A DNA stretch of 6,705 nt from Nitrospira sp. (GTDB lineage: Bacteria > Nitrospirota > Nitrospiria > Nitrospirales > Nitrospiraceae). Below, piece after piece: positions 751 to 6,705 of the stretch (its first letter is position 1; every line of letters begins with the position of its first letter). The notes below the pieces were generated by a model that was given only the letters and a program-made list of their open reading frames with translations, did not search any database and had not been told where the DNA came from. The stretch is taken from assembly GCA_030456405.1 (NCBI GenBank), contig JAKDNQ010000117.1, positions 1 to 6,705 on the forward strand, read 5' to 3'. The position numbers and the translations under genes were made by a program.

Positions 751-948
751 ATGAATGGCGCCTCAGGCTTTCAAGAATTTCGGTCTTCTTCTTCCCGGTC
801 ACCAGCGAATCGGTTCCTTGCAGGAGCAACGACTTCAATTCGGTACAGATTCTTGGCACCGTTCCTGTCTTCTCCGAGGAGCATCGAGTTTTACACTAAC
901 CATCAGGAGGTGGAAGATGAAGAGGTTCTGTGGCCACGTCTTTGTTAG
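751..948 (+). CDS. Doubtful short ORF with a good RBS, possible leader peptide
   Basis: An ATG at 751 follows AAAGGAG (738-744) at a six-base spacing, better than chance would usually give, and opens a 65-residue frame. The product (Ser/Arg/Phe-rich near the N terminus, EVEDEE near the end) resembles no family I know. It has no clear membrane segment or domain. It overlaps the start of the gene at 917 by 32 bases in a different frame, which would allow translational coupling. It could be a leader ORF, a decayed gene or coincidence. I lean towards it not being a conserved gene. Confidence 0.2.
   Translation: MNGASGFQEFRSSSSRSPANRFLAGATTSIRYRFLAPFLSSPRSIEFYTNHQEVEDEEVLWPRLC
905..910 (+). promoter_or_regulatory. 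Ribosome binding site that sets the start at 917
   Basis: AGGAGG, a perfect Shine-Dalgarno core, sits six bases before ATG 917. An in-frame ATG at 755 would add 54 residues and bury the signal peptide, so the RBS and the signal peptide together favour 917. Confidence 0.8.
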
Positions 949-1324
949 TGGCCTGATGCTTGGGAGTCTGTTGCTACAATATGACACTGCATTAGCACAG
1001 TTTAGTGACACGATGCCGCACTTTGGAAAGAATAGCGCGTGTGGCAAGCATATGGTGAATCCTACACACCTAGGAACTCCTCAACAACCATTCTATTTGT
1101 GTAGAGGCACTTCTGGTGCAACTCATTGGTCCGCTGAGATCAGGAAGGATAAGCTCCCTTATGAACTCGTATGCACTCTGCCAAAAAGATCCACCGAGGG
1201 TGATGACTATATATGGGAGAACTGTAGTATCCCTCAGCCTGGTAATTATAGAGGAATCCTTAAGTACTGGGTAGGAACTACAATGTACACTTCTCCTCCG
1301 GACAAGAAGTTTGTCATACCCTGA
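917..1324 (+). CDS. Small secreted four-cysteine protein, unknown family
   Basis: The 135-residue product starts with a standard signal peptide: basic n-region (MKR), hydrophobic core to about residue 20, and an ALA motif giving predicted cleavage after residue 27. The mature part of about 108 residues has exactly four cysteines (42, 62, 86, 103), fitting two disulfides formed in the periplasm or outside the cell. The C-terminal half alternates hydrophobic and polar residues around a PxPGNYRGILKYWVG stretch (about 106-120) that resembles a strand pair of a small Ig-like beta-sandwich; this fold guess is inference. I recognise no catalytic motif or family. The start at 917 is set by a perfect RBS. 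A predicted lipoprotein gene follows after 82 bases on the same strand, possibly co-transcribed. Base composition is visibly more A/T-rich than the large gene downstream. A real, exported protein is likely; its function is unknown. Confidence 0.75.
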   Translation: MKRFCGHVFVSGLMLGSLLLQYDTALAQFSDTMPHFGKNSACGKHMVNPTHLGTPQQPFYLCRGTSGATHWSAEIRKDKLPYELVCTLPKRSTEGDDYIWENCSIPQPGNYRGILKYWVGTTMYTSPPDKKFVIP

Positions 1325-1395
1325 TCTGGGTTCGATCATGAATCCATCTAAAATGTGTCGTGACAGATTATTCCGCGATCATGAACATCAGAAAT

Positions 1396-1401
1396 GGAGA
1401 G
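1396..1401 (+). promoter_or_regulatory. Ribosome binding site that sets the start at 1407
   Basis: GGAGAG lies five bases before ATG 1407. In-frame ATGs at 1311, 1338 and 1353 have no comparable site and would place 18-32 extra polar residues ahead of the lipoprotein signal. Confidence 0.65.
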
Positions 1402-1406
1402 CGCCG

Positions 1407-1937
1407 ATGCGAGCTAGACCATCTTCCACACGCGAAATAGTGTGGTCTTTATTGAAATGCACATTGTTAGTCCCGATTCTTCTCACGTTTGGTTGTGCAA
1501 ACAAGCTAAACCTGATCTCCGAAGGTGGCAAAGAGCTATCTGACGGTATGCTCCCCTTCTTCTCCAGACTAGCTTCAGAATATGACTATTCCATCGTCGC
1601 GAGTGTCCCGAAGGGTGCGAAGACATTCCCAATCTTTTGGACAAAGAATGGAGAAGTTACCTGGAGGCCCTTTTGGATCCCCGTAACTTGGTGGCGATTT
1701 GGCCTGGTTGCAGAGGGGGTGAAAAATGCTGTGTGTTACACCGATTGGAAGCCAGTTAGCACTGAGGTTGGGCATGTGACTAAATTCCCGTGCGACATTG
1801 ATGTCGATCAATACTTTGCTGTCCCACTGGTTGGAATGCTTGACATGCGTTTCGGTGGAGACACAAAAACACCACCGGGGGACGATGAGGCAACTGACGG
1901 AGTAGCGCGTTTGTATTACCTAATTGAGACAAAATGA
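1407..1937 (+). CDS. Predicted lipoprotein, unknown family
   Basis: From ATG 1407 the product is 176 residues. A basic N terminus (MRARPSSTR) precedes a hydrophobic segment at about 11-28 that ends in LTFGC. This fits the permissive lipobox pattern, with Cys30 as the lipidated residue. The next residue is Ala, not Asp, consistent with sorting to the outer membrane if the Lol system is present. The mature protein has a notable aromatic cluster at residues 86-98 (TWRPFWIPVTWWRF) and two further cysteines, 110 and 129, that could pair. The tail is Gly/Asp-rich (FGGDTKTPPGDDEATDG) and ends LYYLIETK. I recognise no domain. It lies 82 bases after the four-cysteine secreted protein, in the same orientation and with similar composition, so the two may form an operon. 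A longer start at 1338 (199 residues) is possible but has no RBS. Confidence 0.7.
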   Translation: MRARPSSTREIVWSLLKCTLLVPILLTFGCANKLNLISEGGKELSDGMLPFFSRLASEYDYSIVASVPKGAKTFPIFWTKNGEVTWRPFWIPVTWWRFGLVAEGVKNAVCYTDWKPVSTEVGHVTKFPCDIDVDQYFAVPLVGMLDMRFGGDTKTPPGDDEATDGVARLYYLIETK

Positions 1938-2042: not shown

Positions 2043-2153
2043 GTGTTCGAACCATATGGGAATCGAGAAAGACACTCGATAGAATACGATCTCGAAAAAG
2101 AATGGCTCTCCTTTGATTTGGGATTAAAGTGCGAGGACGCGCGGTTCGAACAC
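2043..2153. repeat. 11-bp inverted repeat with GTTCGAAC cores
   Basis: GTGTTCGAACC at 2043-2053 is the exact reverse complement of GGTTCGAACAC at 2143-2153, and each contains the 8-bp palindrome GTTCGAAC. The arms are 89 bases apart and the second ends 27 bases before the exoprotein start codon. They could be paired binding sites of a dimeric regulator or the base of a long RNA stem. The TTCGAA core resembles a tRNA T-arm, but no cloverleaf is present. Confidence 0.45.
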
Positions 2154-2167
2154 CTTGAGTTGCAGCT

Positions 2168-2173
2168 GGGGGA
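2168..2173 (+). promoter_or_regulatory. Ribosome binding site of the exoprotein gene
   Basis: GGGGGA ends seven bases before ATG 2181. Translation from this ATG gives an immediate, typical signal peptide, which supports the start. An upstream in-frame GTG at 2043, with AGGA at 2032-2035, is a weaker alternative. Confidence 0.6.
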
Positions 2174-2180
2174 ATTCATC

Positions 2181-5100
2181 ATGAGAAAAAAGCCGGTGAC
2201 CGTCGGCGCTCCTTGTATCTCTTTCCTTGGCGTCGTTCTATTGCTCTTGAGCCTCTTCCCGTTCTCATCCTCCAATCTTCCTAGTGCCGATGCCGAACCC
2301 TCCACAGCGATCTCTCCAACTGATGGAACTGGAAGCCCTGCCAGTCTCGGTACAATCATCACGTCAGGAACCTCTATCGTTCCGACACCTCTGTGCACCG
2401 CCGAGTGTGTGATCACAGGAGGAACCAGGGCTGGCAACAATCTCTTCCACAGCTTCGGTGACTTCGATATCGGAGCATTGGACAGCGCCCGATTCCAAAC
2501 GGGGCTCGTCAACCCTCTCCCCGATTCGAACGTGTCGAATATCCTTGCCCGGGTAACGGGAGGGTCATCGAGTTTATTTGGAAGTTTGGACAGCGCAACC
2601 TACTACCCTTCCGCAAATCTGTTCCTGATGAATCCCGCAGGATTTTTGTTCGGTCCGAACGCCACCGTCAATGTAGGCGGGATGATGACTTTCACTACTG
2701 CCGACCGTCTACACTTTACGGACAACGTGCGCTTCAACGCAATTCCCGATGGAGCAGCCGACGTGTTGCTGAGTTCGGCGCCGGTGGCGGCGTTCGGGTT
2801 CATAGGGTCCAACCCGAATGCCATCAATTTCAAAGGTGGCCAACTCACCGTTGCAAGCGGAACCGGCCTCGCACTCATAGGTGGAGACATCAACCTAATT
2901 CCCGATTCTTCCGCCACGCCGAGCAGCATAACGGCTCCGGGTAGACCAATCCAACTAACAAGCGTCGCGGGAAAAGGTCTAGTCGCGGCGAACACGGGGA
3001 TGCCGGAACCTGGTATGGCCTTGGGAACGATTACACTTGGACAAGACACAAATCTATCAGCTGCTGGCGATGCTTCATTCGGGGATGGGAGCGGCGGCTC
3101 GATTTCAATCCGCGGCGGCCAGTTCGTAGCAACTGGAGCCACAATCATCACCAGTCCGTACACAGACTTCGTCAGTTTTTCCAGCACAGGATCGGGAGGA
3201 GACATCGCCGTGAACGTCACAGGCGCCGCCACGCTCGCCGACAGTTTCATTCAAACGAACTCCTTGGTCGCTGGTAACGCAGGCTCCATATCTCTTGCTG
3301 CTAAGACCGACCTAACACTCACAAATTCCATCATTGACTCGACAAGCATCAATGATTCGGGAACAGTTGGCGCCTTGGGCAACGGCGGAGCTGTGACTCT
3401 GACAACTGAAGAGGGAATCCTGTCCATGGGCGACTCGCTCATCTTGACCGTGGCCAATAATGCCGGAAATGGCGGCGCAGTGACGATCATGGGAAAGGAT
3501 GTCACTTTCAATAGAGCTGCTATCTTCACAGACGTGGATGCCACCGGTTTCGATGTAATCGGTAATCCGGCTCTGGGCCAAGTCCATCCAGGTGCGGTGA
3601 CCGTCACAGGGGAGAACACAGTGATGTTCTCGGGTTCATTTAGCGGGGATCCCGGCATTGCGGTCATCAACGCAAAGGCCTTGGGAACTCTAGTCGATGC
3701 AGGCGGGGTTACGATCACCGGCAAGACAGTGAATCTGTCAAACGGAACGGTCGATACAACTATGAGCAATCAGGGCATCATCAGTCCCGGCAACGGTGGG
3801 GCGATCGAAATCCAAGGCAACAGCGTGAATCTGACTCAATTCCAGCTATTCAGCAATGCCTCCGGCCCTACACAGAGCACCGGAACTGGAGGAAGCATTC
3901 TCCTTCGAGGTGTCGACAGTATCCAAGCCAACAACATCCAGCTGACCGCCTCTAGAGTAGACGCGAGCGCGGTGACCGGTGAGGGAGGAGGACCGATTGA
4001 GTTCCAGACGGAAGGTTTAACGCTCAGCGACGGTACAATTGTCACTACTAGCTCGCTCGGACCTGGCTCGGGTGGAACCATCACGATTGGGGGTGCTGAG
4101 AATGTCACCATAGAGTCCGGATCACAGGTCTTAACGGACGTAGTGCTCGGCGGTCCACTGATTCCACAAGGCACGGCAGGTGACATTTTGTTCGAAACCC
4201 AGAATTTGGCAGTCCTTAGCGGAGGGAAGATCGGTGCCAGGACCCTTATAAACTCCACAGGCAATGCGGGAAATATCACGGTGCAAGGCAATAGCAACAA
4301 CCCAGCCGAGTCGGTACTGATCGACGGCCCAGGCAGCGGCATCTTTACAACCACTGAAGGCACGGGAGAGGGCGGTAATATCAACCTTTTCGCTAACACG
4401 GTGACCGTGCAGAACGGCGGGACGCTGTCGGCTGCGACCTCCGGCACAGAGGCCACTGCCACCGGCGGCTCGATCATAGTGAATACGACAGATCATGTAA
4501 TCATCACGAACGGCGCTTCGATCTCGGCGGCTACCACCGGCTCCGGCGATGCGGGTAATATCATGATCGACGGTGGCAGTCTCACCGTCGCCTCTGGCGG
4601 ACGGATCGAAGCCAGCACGAGCGGCGCAGGAGATGGCGGCTCGATTGACATCACGACGACCGGCGACGTCACGGTGTCGGGAATCAGCTCCGACGGACAG
4701 ACCCGCAGTGGCATCTTCGCAAAGACGCTCAGCGCAGACAGTGGAAGCGGCGGTGGATCAGGAGGCGGAGGTGGTGGTTCTGGGGGTGGCGGTGGAGGCG
4801 CGGCGCCCAAACCAGGCAAAGCGGGCGACATCACTATTGAAGCAAAGAATCTCCTCCTCGACGAAGGAGCCCAGATCGACAGCAGCACAACCAGCGGTGG
4901 AGCCGGCGGAACGGTCTCGATCAAGACGGCAGAAAACATTACCATCGCCGGCTCCAGCACACGCTTGACGTCCGATGCCACGCGCGGAGACGGCAAGGGC
5001 GGCAACATTATTTTGGTCGCGAAGAACATCACAGTGCGCGACCGCGCCAACATCACCGCTGTCACAGGCGGCAAGGGAGACGCCGGTACCGTCACGCTGA

Positions 5101-6705
5101 CGGCCCTCGATCAACTGCTGCTTCAATCGGCGGGGACCATCACAACGAGCACGAGCGGCCCGGGCAAAGGCGGTACGATCATGATCCAAGCAAACCAGAT
5201 CCTGCTCGATGGGCAAGGAACGACCATCACCGCCGATACGCTACGGCCCTTCGCTGACATGACGATCACGATCGATATCCTGCACCCGAACGACGGCGAG
5301 CTGGTTGTGCAATTGGAGAGTCCAACCGGAACGCGGGTCGCGCTTCTTTCGCGCGTCGGCGGGAGCGGCGATAATTTCACCGACACACAGTTCAACGATC
5401 AAGCCACCACGCCGATAACGTCCGGATCGGCGCCCTTCACGGGCGAATTCAAACCGCGTGAACCGATGGGTCAATTGAACAATCAACTCGTCGCAGGCGA
5501 TTGGACATTGAACGTGCGGGATCAAGCGACCGGCACTGTCGGCTCTCTGGAGAGTTGGACGCTGCAGATCGGCGATCAGACCTTCCAATCGACCGGCGGG
5601 TCCACAGAGATTCTCGGCAATGGCGAAAACGTACAGTCCACCATCACCGTAACCAATCCAACTGTGCCGAACGTGCAGGGTGTCGGCGAACCGTCAGGCA
5701 GCGGCGGCAATGTGACCATCAATGCCGGCTCGGTGGCTGTCCAGAATGGCGCGACAATGTCGGCCACCACGAGGGGCTCCGGCCAAGGCGGCACGCTGAC
5801 TGTGAATGCAACCGATGCTGTGGCCCTCACCGGCTCAAGCAGCGGCCTCTTCACCGATAGCCAGGGAAGTGGAACCGGCGGCAGCGTCGCTCTCACCGCT
5901 GGTCACTCAGTCACGATCTTAGATGGCGCTTCGGTCACAGCTAGCAGCACCGGCTCCGGCAATGCGGGCAACATCCATATTGACGCGGGTCAGACCTTCG
6001 TCGCGACGAATAGCGCGAGCGCGGTGACGACGCAGGCCAAGGCCGCGAGCGGCGGAGACATCACGTTGGTGGCTACCGATAGGGTTCAGCTCAATAACAG
6101 CCAAATCAGCACTTCGGTCGTAGACGGGTCTGGAGGCGGCGGGGATATTTCGATCGATCCGCAGTATGTGATCCTACAAAATAGCCAGATTCTGGCCCAG
6201 GCGGATCAAGGTCAGGGCGGCGCGATTGCGATCACCACAAATCTATTCCTGCAGGATGCCACTAGTCTCGTCAGTGCAGATTCCCGCTCCGGCCTGGACG
6301 GCACCGTGAGGATTCAATCGCCGATCTCCCCAGCTAGCGGCAAGATTCAGCCGCTGGGTAACGAGCTTCTGGAAGCCACGTCGCTGCTCAACCAACGTTG
6401 CGCGGCCCTGACCGGAGGGGAGTTCAGCAGCTTCACTGTGGCAGGCCGGGACAGCTTGCCGACTGAACCGGGCAGTTGGCTCGCGAGCCCGCTTGTCGCC
6501 TTCGGCGCCGGTGAGGCGTTAGGAGTAAGGGGTGAGGGGATAGCGGCGCGAGGTGAGGGGCAAGGGGTAAGGGGTGAGGAGTTAGAGGGCAAGCCTCTCG
6601 GAGCTTCGCTTGCAAACGAGAGCACGCTCCTATCATTGCGACAAATTGCGCCGACCGGGTTCCTCACCCAAGCATTTGCCCAGGACTGGTCGGCTGGCTG
6701 CACAT
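2181..6705 (+). CDS. TPS (filamentous haemagglutinin-like) exoprotein with P domain, 3' end cut
   Basis: The visible 1508 codons are open without a frameshift to the window edge. The signal peptide is basic (MRKK) with a hydrophobic core at about 13-28 and likely cleavage after ADA (38). A TPS/haemagglutination-activity domain follows (about 45-181) with GGTRAGNNLFHSFGDF and an NPAG motif, then the usual extension with AFGFIGSNPNAI. From about 310 to 1390 there are roughly 20-residue coils of the type GSGDAGNIxIxxxxVxVxxGxxIxAxTxG, expected to form a right-handed parallel beta-helix. Insertions are a Gly/Ser linker (854-873) and a P/Homo B domain (1019-1130). The C-terminal region has Cys1407 and SSFTVAGRDSLP (1416-1427). 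The protein should cross the inner membrane by Sec and the outer membrane through a TpsB partner, to be displayed or released. No TpsB gene is in view. By recollection of homologues, the end (FAQDWSAGCT) is close to the true C terminus. Adhesion or biofilm function is inferred from the family. Confidence 0.93.
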   Translation, partial: MRKKPVTVGAPCISFLGVVLLLLSLFPFSSSNLPSADAEPSTAISPTDGTGSPASLGTIITSGTSIVPTPLCTAECVITGGTRAGNNLFHSFGDFDIGALDSARFQTGLVNPLPDSNVSNILARVTGGSSSLFGSLDSATYYPSANLFLMNPAGFLFGPNATVNVGGMMTFTTADRLHFTDNVRFNAIPDGAADVLLSSAPVAAFGFIGSNPNAINFKGGQLTVASGTGLALIGGDINLIPDSSATPSSITAPGRPIQLTSVAGKGLVAANTGMPEPGMALGTITLGQDTNLSAAGDASFGDGSGGSISIRGGQFVATGATIITSPYTDFVSFSSTGSGGDIAVNVTGAATLADSFIQTNSLVAGNAGSISLAAKTDLTLTNSIIDSTSINDSGTVGALGNGGAVTLTTEEGILSMGDSLILTVANNAGNGGAVTIMGKDVTFNRAAIFTDVDATGFDVIGNPALGQVHPGAVTVTGENTVMFSGSFSGDPGIAVINAKALGTLVDAGGVTITGKTVNLSNGTVDTTMSNQGIISPGNGGAIEIQGNSVNLTQFQLFSNASGPTQSTGTGGSILLRGVDSIQANNIQLTASRVDASAVTGEGGGPIEFQTEGLTLSDGTIVTTSSLGPGSGGTITIGGAENVTIESGSQVLTDVVLGGPLIPQGTAGDILFETQNLAVLSGGKIGARTLINSTGNAGNITVQGNSNNPAESVLIDGPGSGIFTTTEGTGEGGNINLFANTVTVQNGGTLSAATSGTEATATGGSIIVNTTDHVIITNGASISAATTGSGDAGNIMIDGGSLTVASGGRIEASTSGAGDGGSIDITTTGDVTVSGISSDGQTRSGIFAKTLSADSGSGGGSGGGGGGSGGGGGGAAPKPGKAGDITIEAKNLLLDEGAQIDSSTTSGGAGGTVSIKTAENITIAGSSTRLTSDATRGDGKGGNIILVAKNITVRDRANITAVTGGKGDAGTVTLTALDQLLLQSAGTITTSTSGPGKGGTIMIQANQILLDGQGTTITADTLRPFADMTITIDILHPNDGELVVQLESPTGTRVALLSRVGGSGDNFTDTQFNDQATTPITSGSAPFTGEFKPREPMGQLNNQLVAGDWTLNVRDQATGTVGSLESWTLQIGDQTFQSTGGSTEILGNGENVQSTITVTNPTVPNVQGVGEPSGSGGNVTINAGSVAVQNGATMSATTRGSGQGGTLTVNATDAVALTGSSSGLFTDSQGSGTGGSVALTAGHSVTILDGASVTASSTGSGNAGNIHIDAGQTFVATNSASAVTTQAKAASGGDITLVATDRVQLNNSQISTSVVDGSGGGGDISIDPQYVILQNSQILAQADQGQGGAIAITTNLFLQDATSLVSADSRSGLDGTVRIQSPISPASGKIQPLGNELLEATSLLNQRCAALTGGEFSSFTVAGRDSLPTEPGSWLASPLVAFGAGEALGVRGEGIAARGEGQGVRGEELEGKPLGASLANESTLLSLRQIAPTGFLTQAFAQDWSAGCT
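2313..2723 (+). other. TPS secretion domain within the exoprotein
   Basis: Residues about 45-181 match the haemagglutination-activity/TPS domain that is recognised by the POTRA domains of TpsB and nucleates the beta-helix. Visible landmarks are ITGGTRAGNNLFHSFGDF ending at residue 95, NVSNILARVTGG, and NLFLMNPAGFLFGPNA. The canonical NPNG is NPAG here (residues 151-154), a variant I recall from cyanobacterial and Nitrospira-like members. Two cysteines lie near residues 72 and 76 (LCTAEC), unusual in proteins of this class. Confidence 0.88.
4740..4799 (+). other. Gly/Ser linker in the exoprotein
   Basis: Residues 854-873 consist only of glycine and serine, with two runs of six glycines around Ser867, followed by AAPKPGKAGD. 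The tract lies in the turn between two beta-helix coils (SGIFAKTLS before, GDITIEAKNLLL after) and so is probably a flexible surface loop. On the coding strand it is G-rich and purine-rich, made mostly of GGN codons that vary at the third base, so it is not a simple DNA homopolymer expansion. Confidence 0.8.
5235..5573 (+). other. P/Homo B domain inserted in the beta-helix
   Basis: Residues about 1019-1130 follow the P-domain pattern (proprotein convertase P domain, Pfam P_proprotein) along its whole length. They have alternating hydrophobic strands leading to HPNDGELVVQLESPTGT (1035 onward), LLSRVGGSGDNF ending at Phe1066, then PFTGEFKP, AGDWTLNVRD with Trp1108 and Asp1114, and GSLESWTLQI with Trp1126. 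The usual H-x(n)-GDL is GEL here. This small beta-sandwich commonly stabilises subtilisin-like or metallo-proteases and can bind calcium. No Asp/His/Ser protease triad or HExxH motif is apparent in this protein. Beta-helix coils resume at GGNVTI (residue 1175 onward) after a linker of about 45 residues. Confidence 0.88.
6399..6461 (+). other. Conserved C-terminal motif of the exoprotein
   Basis: After the last beta-helix coil, residues 1407-1427 carry a cysteine followed by SSFTVAGRDSLP. From memory this resembles the C-terminal signature (Cys...SSF.V.GRGGLP) of many cyanobacterial and Nitrospira-like TPS or S-layer-family proteins. Its role is not established to my knowledge. The protein continues with PTEPGSWLASPL before the heptamer insertion. 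Confidence 0.55.
6510..6586 (+). repeat. Eleven degenerate heptamers, consensus GGTRAGG, inside the CDS
   Basis: Eleven units of 7 bases follow without gaps at 6510+7k. Four are identical GGTGAGG (6510, 6531, 6552, 6573); the others include CGTTAGG, AGTAAGG, GGCAAGG and GGTAAGG. GGTGAGG recurs every third unit, so the 21-base superperiod gives a 7-residue protein repeat (GVRGE / AARGE / GVRGE). Most remaining units deviate at one to three bases. The tract adds charged Gly/Arg/Glu sequence between the C-terminal motif and the terminal segment. The texture matches heptanucleotide short tandem repeats that occur dispersed in some cyanobacteria and, by my recollection, Nitrospira. Confidence 0.75.

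Follow-up and report, generated by a model that had tools for sequence, protein, structure and literature searches.

Evidence for a circularly permuted P domain in the beta-helix of a two-partner-secretion exoprotein from Nitrospira

How a P domain comes to lie in the middle of a secreted beta-helix, and in what form, is the question raised by a 6,705-nucleotide stretch of Nitrospira sp. contig JAKDNQ010000117.1 (assembly GCA_030456405.1), referred to here as the window. Nitrospira are nitrite oxidisers. The sole large open reading frame (ORF) of the window belongs to a gene for a two-partner-secretion (TPS) exoprotein, 2181..6704 (+), which is still open at the window end. An original prediction had placed a P domain at 5235..5573 of this gene, flanked by beta-helix coils and with no accompanying protease domain. 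The observation was confirmed and the interpretation partly supported; the prediction missed a permutation within the domain, a conserved stretch around it and a conserved pair of C-terminal cysteines. The locus probably encodes a TPS exoprotein in which a circularly permuted P domain occupies an inter-coil turn and is displayed as a binding module. The circular permutation is well supported, with the segment order read from the sequences, the fold taken from predicted models and a geometric reason proposed below.

The window carries a true P domain. Pfam P_proprotein (PF01483) matches residues 1072-1176 (window 5256-5570) with an E-value of 1.3e-13 and a score of 51.3 bits against a curated cut-off of 21, covering positions 3-86 of the 86 in the profile. 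The predicted stretch thus corresponds to the P-domain core, 5238..5576 (+), residues 1066-1178. A Pfam and NCBIfam scan identified no protease family in the exoprotein ORF. Pairing with a protease catalytic domain is customary for P_proprotein, though not obligatory. Among the 72 non-TPS proteins listed with a P domain, 38 likewise have no protease family (a hand count in which some records are partial); the absence of a protease is therefore not what sets this case apart, and the notion that an orphan P domain is unusual in itself is not supported. When solved structures were searched by sequence, neither the window segment nor the consensus of ordinary P domains returned a match; profile A1 matched only the Aeromonas sobria protease, with an E-value of 0.0043 and over the core alone.

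Relatives were collected by searching 5.8 billion proteins with residues 1030-1200, from which 172 proteins were retrieved and the best 120 used. The TPS group among them comprises 48 proteins including that of the window, and 46 carry both PF05860 and PF01483; P0019 and P0027 lack the TPS label, yet were counted with the group since they share 81% identity in the region. Two further searches enlarged the group to 53 TPS exoproteins with a P core: that with P0072 contributed P0124, and that with P0081 contributed P0148, P0160, P0163 and P0164. As the proteins were picked by similarity in the P region, they give no measure of how often TPS proteins carry a P domain.

Ordinary P domains retrieved alongside have a segment of the pattern F.STD.P..IPDN..T.ST.TV ahead of the core. 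In the TPS group, a beta-helix coil (GGTI.IQA..LLDG.GT.ITADT) leads directly into the core (..PFADMTITI..), C-terminal of which the segment is found, as WTLQIG.QTFQSTGGS..IPDNG.VRSTITV. The relocated N-terminal segment of the window is assigned to 5577..5651 (+), residues 1179-1203 (QTFQSTGGSTEILGNGENVQSTITV). A hidden Markov model (HMM) of the N-terminal segment was trained on 180 copies, drawn from 72 non-TPS proteins, so that the figures for TPS copies are independent of the training. Over the 60 residues after the core, 50 TPS copies scored a median of 18.2 bits with a minimum of 9.0, and before the core a median of -0.5 bits with a maximum of 4.2. As controls, 1000 shuffles had a 95% point of 3.8 bits (maximum 11.3) and 960 stretches taken elsewhere in these proteins had one of 2.7 bits (maximum 9.0). 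When whole proteins were searched with the full ordinary HMM, a separate match to the N-terminal segment was placed after the core in 39 of the 50 copies and before it in none.

Segment positions were then classed at a threshold of 7 bits. All 51 TPS copies had the segment after the core only, and the 237 non-TPS copies were divided into 192 with the segment before, 18 with it on both sides, 23 with it in neither place and 4 with it after only. With all 175 proteins included, the TPS part (56 copies in 53 proteins) had 54 copies with the segment after only and none with it before; the first copy of P0148 (4.4 bits) and P0164 (2.1 bits) scored in neither place. The corresponding figures for 285 non-TPS copies were 215 before, 20 both, 46 neither and 4 after only. 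By eye, the last four consist of a protein cut at its start (P0011), a weak case (P0079) and two copies that are followed by a further P domain (P0013 and P0123). Moving the segment to the front of the core in a script raised the ordinary-HMM score in 51 of 51 TPS copies, by a median of 14.2 bits and at least 6.2; a shuffled segment moved in the same manner gave a median gain of 1.4 bits and at most 5.6, with positive values in 46 of 51. The window copy rose from 144.5 to 155.2 bits, a gain of 10.7, and reached 145.2 with the shuffled segment. From these comparisons, the usual strand order of P_proprotein does not appear to be kept, and the domain is better described as a permuted relative than as a standard member. 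Two of the TPS exoproteins, P0081 and P0148, have two P cores each, placed far apart near residues 350 and 1290; three of the four have the segment C-terminal of the core, and the first copy of P0148 is not clear.

The predicted structure agrees with the permuted order and presents beta-helix on both sides of the P domain, as originally proposed. In the domain model, the moved strands lie within blocks having predicted local distance difference test (pLDDT) values of 89-96. Furin and Kex2 account for 16 listed rows of the structural comparison, and in all of them the chain is aligned only from furin 485 or Kex2 506, beginning at model residue 22. The best of these rows have about 26% identity and deviate by 1.9-2.2 Å over 85-88 residues (4omc: 86 residues, 2.1 Å, 26% identity; 2id4: 85 residues, 1.9 Å). 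PLAT-type domains, the PLAT/LH2-type beta-sandwich of lipases and lipoxygenases, align in order from about model residue 20 to 153.

The original prediction had the domain replacing a coil turn. By eye, the coils on either side, n (GGTIMIQANQILLDGQGTTITADT) and n+1 (GGNVTINAGSVAVQNGATMSATTRGSGQGG), are intact and the P domain lies between ITADT and the next GG, which is the turn between coils; thus the domain was added to the helix and no coil was replaced. The chain returns into the beta-helix and the C-terminal coils at 5652..6398 (+), residues 1204-1452, modelled up to residue 1372. In the proposed arrangement, the link between the N-terminal strand of the P domain (..STITV) and the next strand (..ADMTITI) would have been broken, with a new join between the former N and C ends (..WTLQIG-xQTFQST..). 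We infer that the new ends, being neighbouring strands, allow a single inter-coil turn in the C-terminal part of the helix to take the domain while the helix continues unbroken. During secretion, the TPS domain would leave first through the TpsB pore; export by TpsB is proposed since the protein belongs to this family and tpsB adjoins the gene in relatives. The P domain would then be shown on the side of the helix, where it may bind a neighbour, the matrix or a substrate. According to the review PMC5422565, elements projecting from the beta-helix might have specific roles, with the helix as a scaffold that presents them, and a displayed binding module is the best reading of the domain on this view. 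Of the protruding binding module in the original prediction, the position outside the helix core stands and the binding is what we would propose.

Conservation is greatest around the domain. Median identity between the window and 48 relatives is 42% for the TPS domain, drops to 26-30% across the middle coils and is 57% just before a Gly-rich linker, rising to 72% in the linker and five coils, 77% in the P core and 60% in the moved segment, and then falling to 52-55% for the later coils and 22% for the tail. The contrast is biased by the choice of relatives on the P region, although the difference from the TPS domain is large. The linker itself opens the conserved stretch at 4740..4806 (+), and together with about five coils ahead of the P domain it spans 4725..5234 (+), residues 895-1064. 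The peak in conservation would fit either strong constraint or the exchange of a cassette. The first 48 proteins contain 50 copies, of which 44 have the region ending 203-460 residues from the C-terminus; the remaining six end 73, 617, 625, 663, 1281 and 1516 residues from it. Divergent members of the group have the domain elsewhere. In a tree calculated from 110 columns, 49 of 51 TPS copies form one clade with support of 99/91.

Of the 22 loci found, those from named genomes with both domains in one exoprotein (the TPS-P type) belong to two Nitrospira metagenome-assembled genomes (MAGs), L001 and L002. In the family of the L002 genome, these two MAGs are the only ones of 175 genomes with the TPS-P type and 115 of the 175 have a TPS domain; in the genus of the L001 genome, the type is present in 1 of 32. 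Some P-domain match was found in 19 of 395 genomes of a sample spread across the phylum, with only G002 at 1e-93 and the next best at 5e-17. An E-value of 1e-20 was passed by 1 of 4 genomes behind other loci, 3 of 291 from the cyanobacterial phylum and 3 of 274 from the class of a Nitrosomonadales MAG. In these large samples part of the candidates of each genome were scored (8 for the phylum, 11-12 for the cyanobacterial and Nitrosomonadales sets), so misses are possible. A wider spread of the permuted type was considered and rejected, as the P domains of the genomes passing 1e-20 have the segment in front by eye. Carriage by a mobile element was also set aside: 13 pattern matches in viral contigs included no confirmed relative, and two plasmid matches of 40-43% identity each covered less than 80% of the query.

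Several observations weigh against the proposed permutation and display. The segment of the window is itself among the weakest, at 9.4 bits against a shuffle maximum of 11.3, since the IPDN seen in many relatives reads ILGN here; nor is the window copy one of the 39 with a separate match. The case for permutation thus appears to be carried by the family, the window copy being weak by itself. The copies classed as having the segment before the core (235 of 285) contain the 180 training copies and hence are no independent control, and 46 of the 285 scored in neither place. Mean pLDDT was below 67 in three of five domain models, and Foldseek gave neither model a match at an E-value of 0.001 or less. 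Only 6 of the 16 furin and Kex2 rows end at model residue 129-130, while 10 extend to 160-170 and gain few further chain residues. The Z score to furin of about 7 is near background by the guidance that the tool itself gives, and the scores of PLAT-type domains are a little above it. That the moved strand occupies the place of the native N-terminal strand is what we infer from the models. In the tree, both P0081 copies fall outside the TPS clade with their placement not resolved, and all 51 TPS copies were united in 18% of 200 bootstrap trees, with the bootstrap not settled.

An alternative to permutation is that the domain is a normal P domain which has lost its N-terminal strand and is followed by the leftover front of a deleted second P domain, the trailing segment being debris of a broken tandem array and the core borrowing a strand from the beta-helix. 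P domains often occur in tandem, with the segment on both sides in 20 of 285 non-TPS copies, and an out-of-phase cut of such an array would yield exactly the order seen. Debris would not be expected to persist, however, in 54 of 56 copies among proteins whose identity in the P region falls to about 40-50%, at a median identity of 60% to the window in 48 relatives, and to be predicted as confident strands adjoining the core. As an account of debris this explanation is unlikely; as a route of origin it is compatible with permutation, and since 18 of 237 ordinary copies have the segment on both sides, the permuted domain plausibly descends from a tandem array that was cut out of phase. Somewhat less improbable, though still doubtful, is a role as a folding or stability element with no ligand, for example a calcium-clamped nucleus that draws the helix out of the TpsB pore. 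The 203-460 residues that separate the domain from the C-terminus in most copies would suit such a role, but most TPS-bearing genomes of the family do without the domain and divergent members have it at other positions.

The original prediction also offered the domain as a docking site for a separate protease. Directly downstream of tpsA in both L001 and L002 is a TpsB gene, followed in L001 (TpsB being ShlB with POTRA_2) by CHAT-TPR, CHASE2-cyclase and DUF928 genes and in L002 by CHAT-TPR and DUF928. The P domain could in principle be a recognition site for the peptidase-like CHAT-TPR protein, whose gene comes second after that of the exoprotein in both loci, or be its substrate for maturation. 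By eye, both CHAT-TPR proteins keep the His and Cys of a caspase-like dyad, and that of L001 has a signal peptide. Among 12 fetched stretches with exoproteins that have no P core, which were taken from the best-scoring TPS loci and not at random, CHAT is present in 9 and DUF928 in 8, all 8 among the 9. In these 12 stretches the CHAT gene therefore follows the TPS operon and not the P domain, a P-specific dock was rejected, and this explanation is very unlikely. In L083 the CHAT gene is on the other strand. The CHAT-TPR proteins beside the TPS systems (L001 10978-13281, L002 13050-15485) have sequences that suggest extracytoplasmic caspase-like peptidases.

A permuted and displayed P domain remains the preferred explanation, and the circular permutation is its new part, the domain and the kind of exoprotein being already known. 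Neither a permuted P domain nor a TPS exoprotein with a P domain was found described in open-licence PubMed Central literature, among the matches listed. The core sequence, and tentatively the predicted core fold, resemble those of the proprotein convertase P domain of furin, Kex2 and the Aeromonas sobria serine protease, from which the window differs in having the N-terminal strands after the core, a beta-helix around it and no protease family. With the TpsA exoproteins FHA, HMW1, HxuA and EtpA, it shares the TPS domain, the beta-helix and, in relatives, TpsB next door; unlike them, its family has a P domain, cysteines 55-100 residues apart and an operon with CHAT-TPR and DUF928. The M loop of HxuA and other extra-helical TpsA elements, as described in PMC5422565, are likewise functional elements projecting from a beta-helix, but consist of loops or helices rather than a whole permuted domain. 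Natural permutation is also known from calcium-dependent carbohydrate-binding modules (title of PDB 2xhh), a different family with a weak Foldseek row (E-value 0.48, TM-score 0.13 on the query and 0.41 on the target).

If correct, the P/Homo B domain would have undergone circular permutation in nature, seen here in TPS exoproteins alone (with 46 of the 285 other copies unclassed), and this would be a concrete case of evolution fitting a terminal domain into a repeat fibre. Since the 86 positions of P_proprotein align to the core, permuted cases can pass as ordinary P domains. The evidence is evenly balanced on a broader proposal, in which permutation lets a terminal protease domain become a side domain of a beta-solenoid and a cassette of Gly-rich linker, about five coils, P domain and return is exchanged between divergent TPS exoproteins of Nitrospira and relatives. 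A true permutation would also indicate where a domain can be cut and rejoined when it is grafted into a beta-helix, and the TPS-P type would mark a class of Nitrospira surface proteins.

The remainder of the exoprotein is consistent with a TpsA type, having both an N-terminal TPS domain and a right-handed beta-helix. The longest ORF runs from a GTG at 2043 to 6704 (+); the ATG at 2181 is the probable start and is followed by a signal-like stretch by eye. The TPS secretion domain (PF05860) is located at 2406..2987 (+), residues 122-315, with a Pfam E-value of 7.2e-29. Near the other end are Cys1453 (6399..6401 (+)) and Cys1553 (6699..6701 (+)), the conserved C-terminal pair. In 46 of 49 TPS-P proteins one cysteine is 58-102 residues from the C-terminus and the other 2-4 from it; the pair was not seen in P0019, P0049 and P0081, and P0038 has two extra cysteines in this part. 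The first cysteine of the window is the farthest from the C-terminus among the 46, and its pair is 100 residues apart. In the relatives nearest to the window protein the last residues are GCTS, GCQS or GCRS, so the window would fall short of the end of tpsA by about one codon and the stop. As described in PMC5422565, HMW1 and HxuA are held in the TpsB pore by a C-terminal disulfide loop, and the pair in the window family recalls this anchor; it may close a similar loop and retain the protein at the surface. Between the two cysteines, at 6510-6593, are four copies of a 21-base coding repeat of the GTGAGGGG type.

In L002, two genes upstream of tpsA (5654-6493 and 6490-7227) recur in the Nitrospiraceae TPS clusters L077, L078 and L084; inspection by eye suggests that the first encodes a papain-like cysteine peptidase carrying a lipoprotein signal. 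The window also has two small genes upstream of the exoprotein gene, at 917-1321 (+) and 1311-1934 (+). ORFs 755-1321 and 1311-1934 had no Pfam or NCBIfam match at an E-value of 0.1, and Rfam gave no match. By eye, one of the small genes has a signal-like start with several cysteines and the other is lipoprotein-like. Near the left end of the window, an inverted repeat at 10-50 has 19-base arms and a 3-base loop, and is possibly the terminator of a preceding gene.
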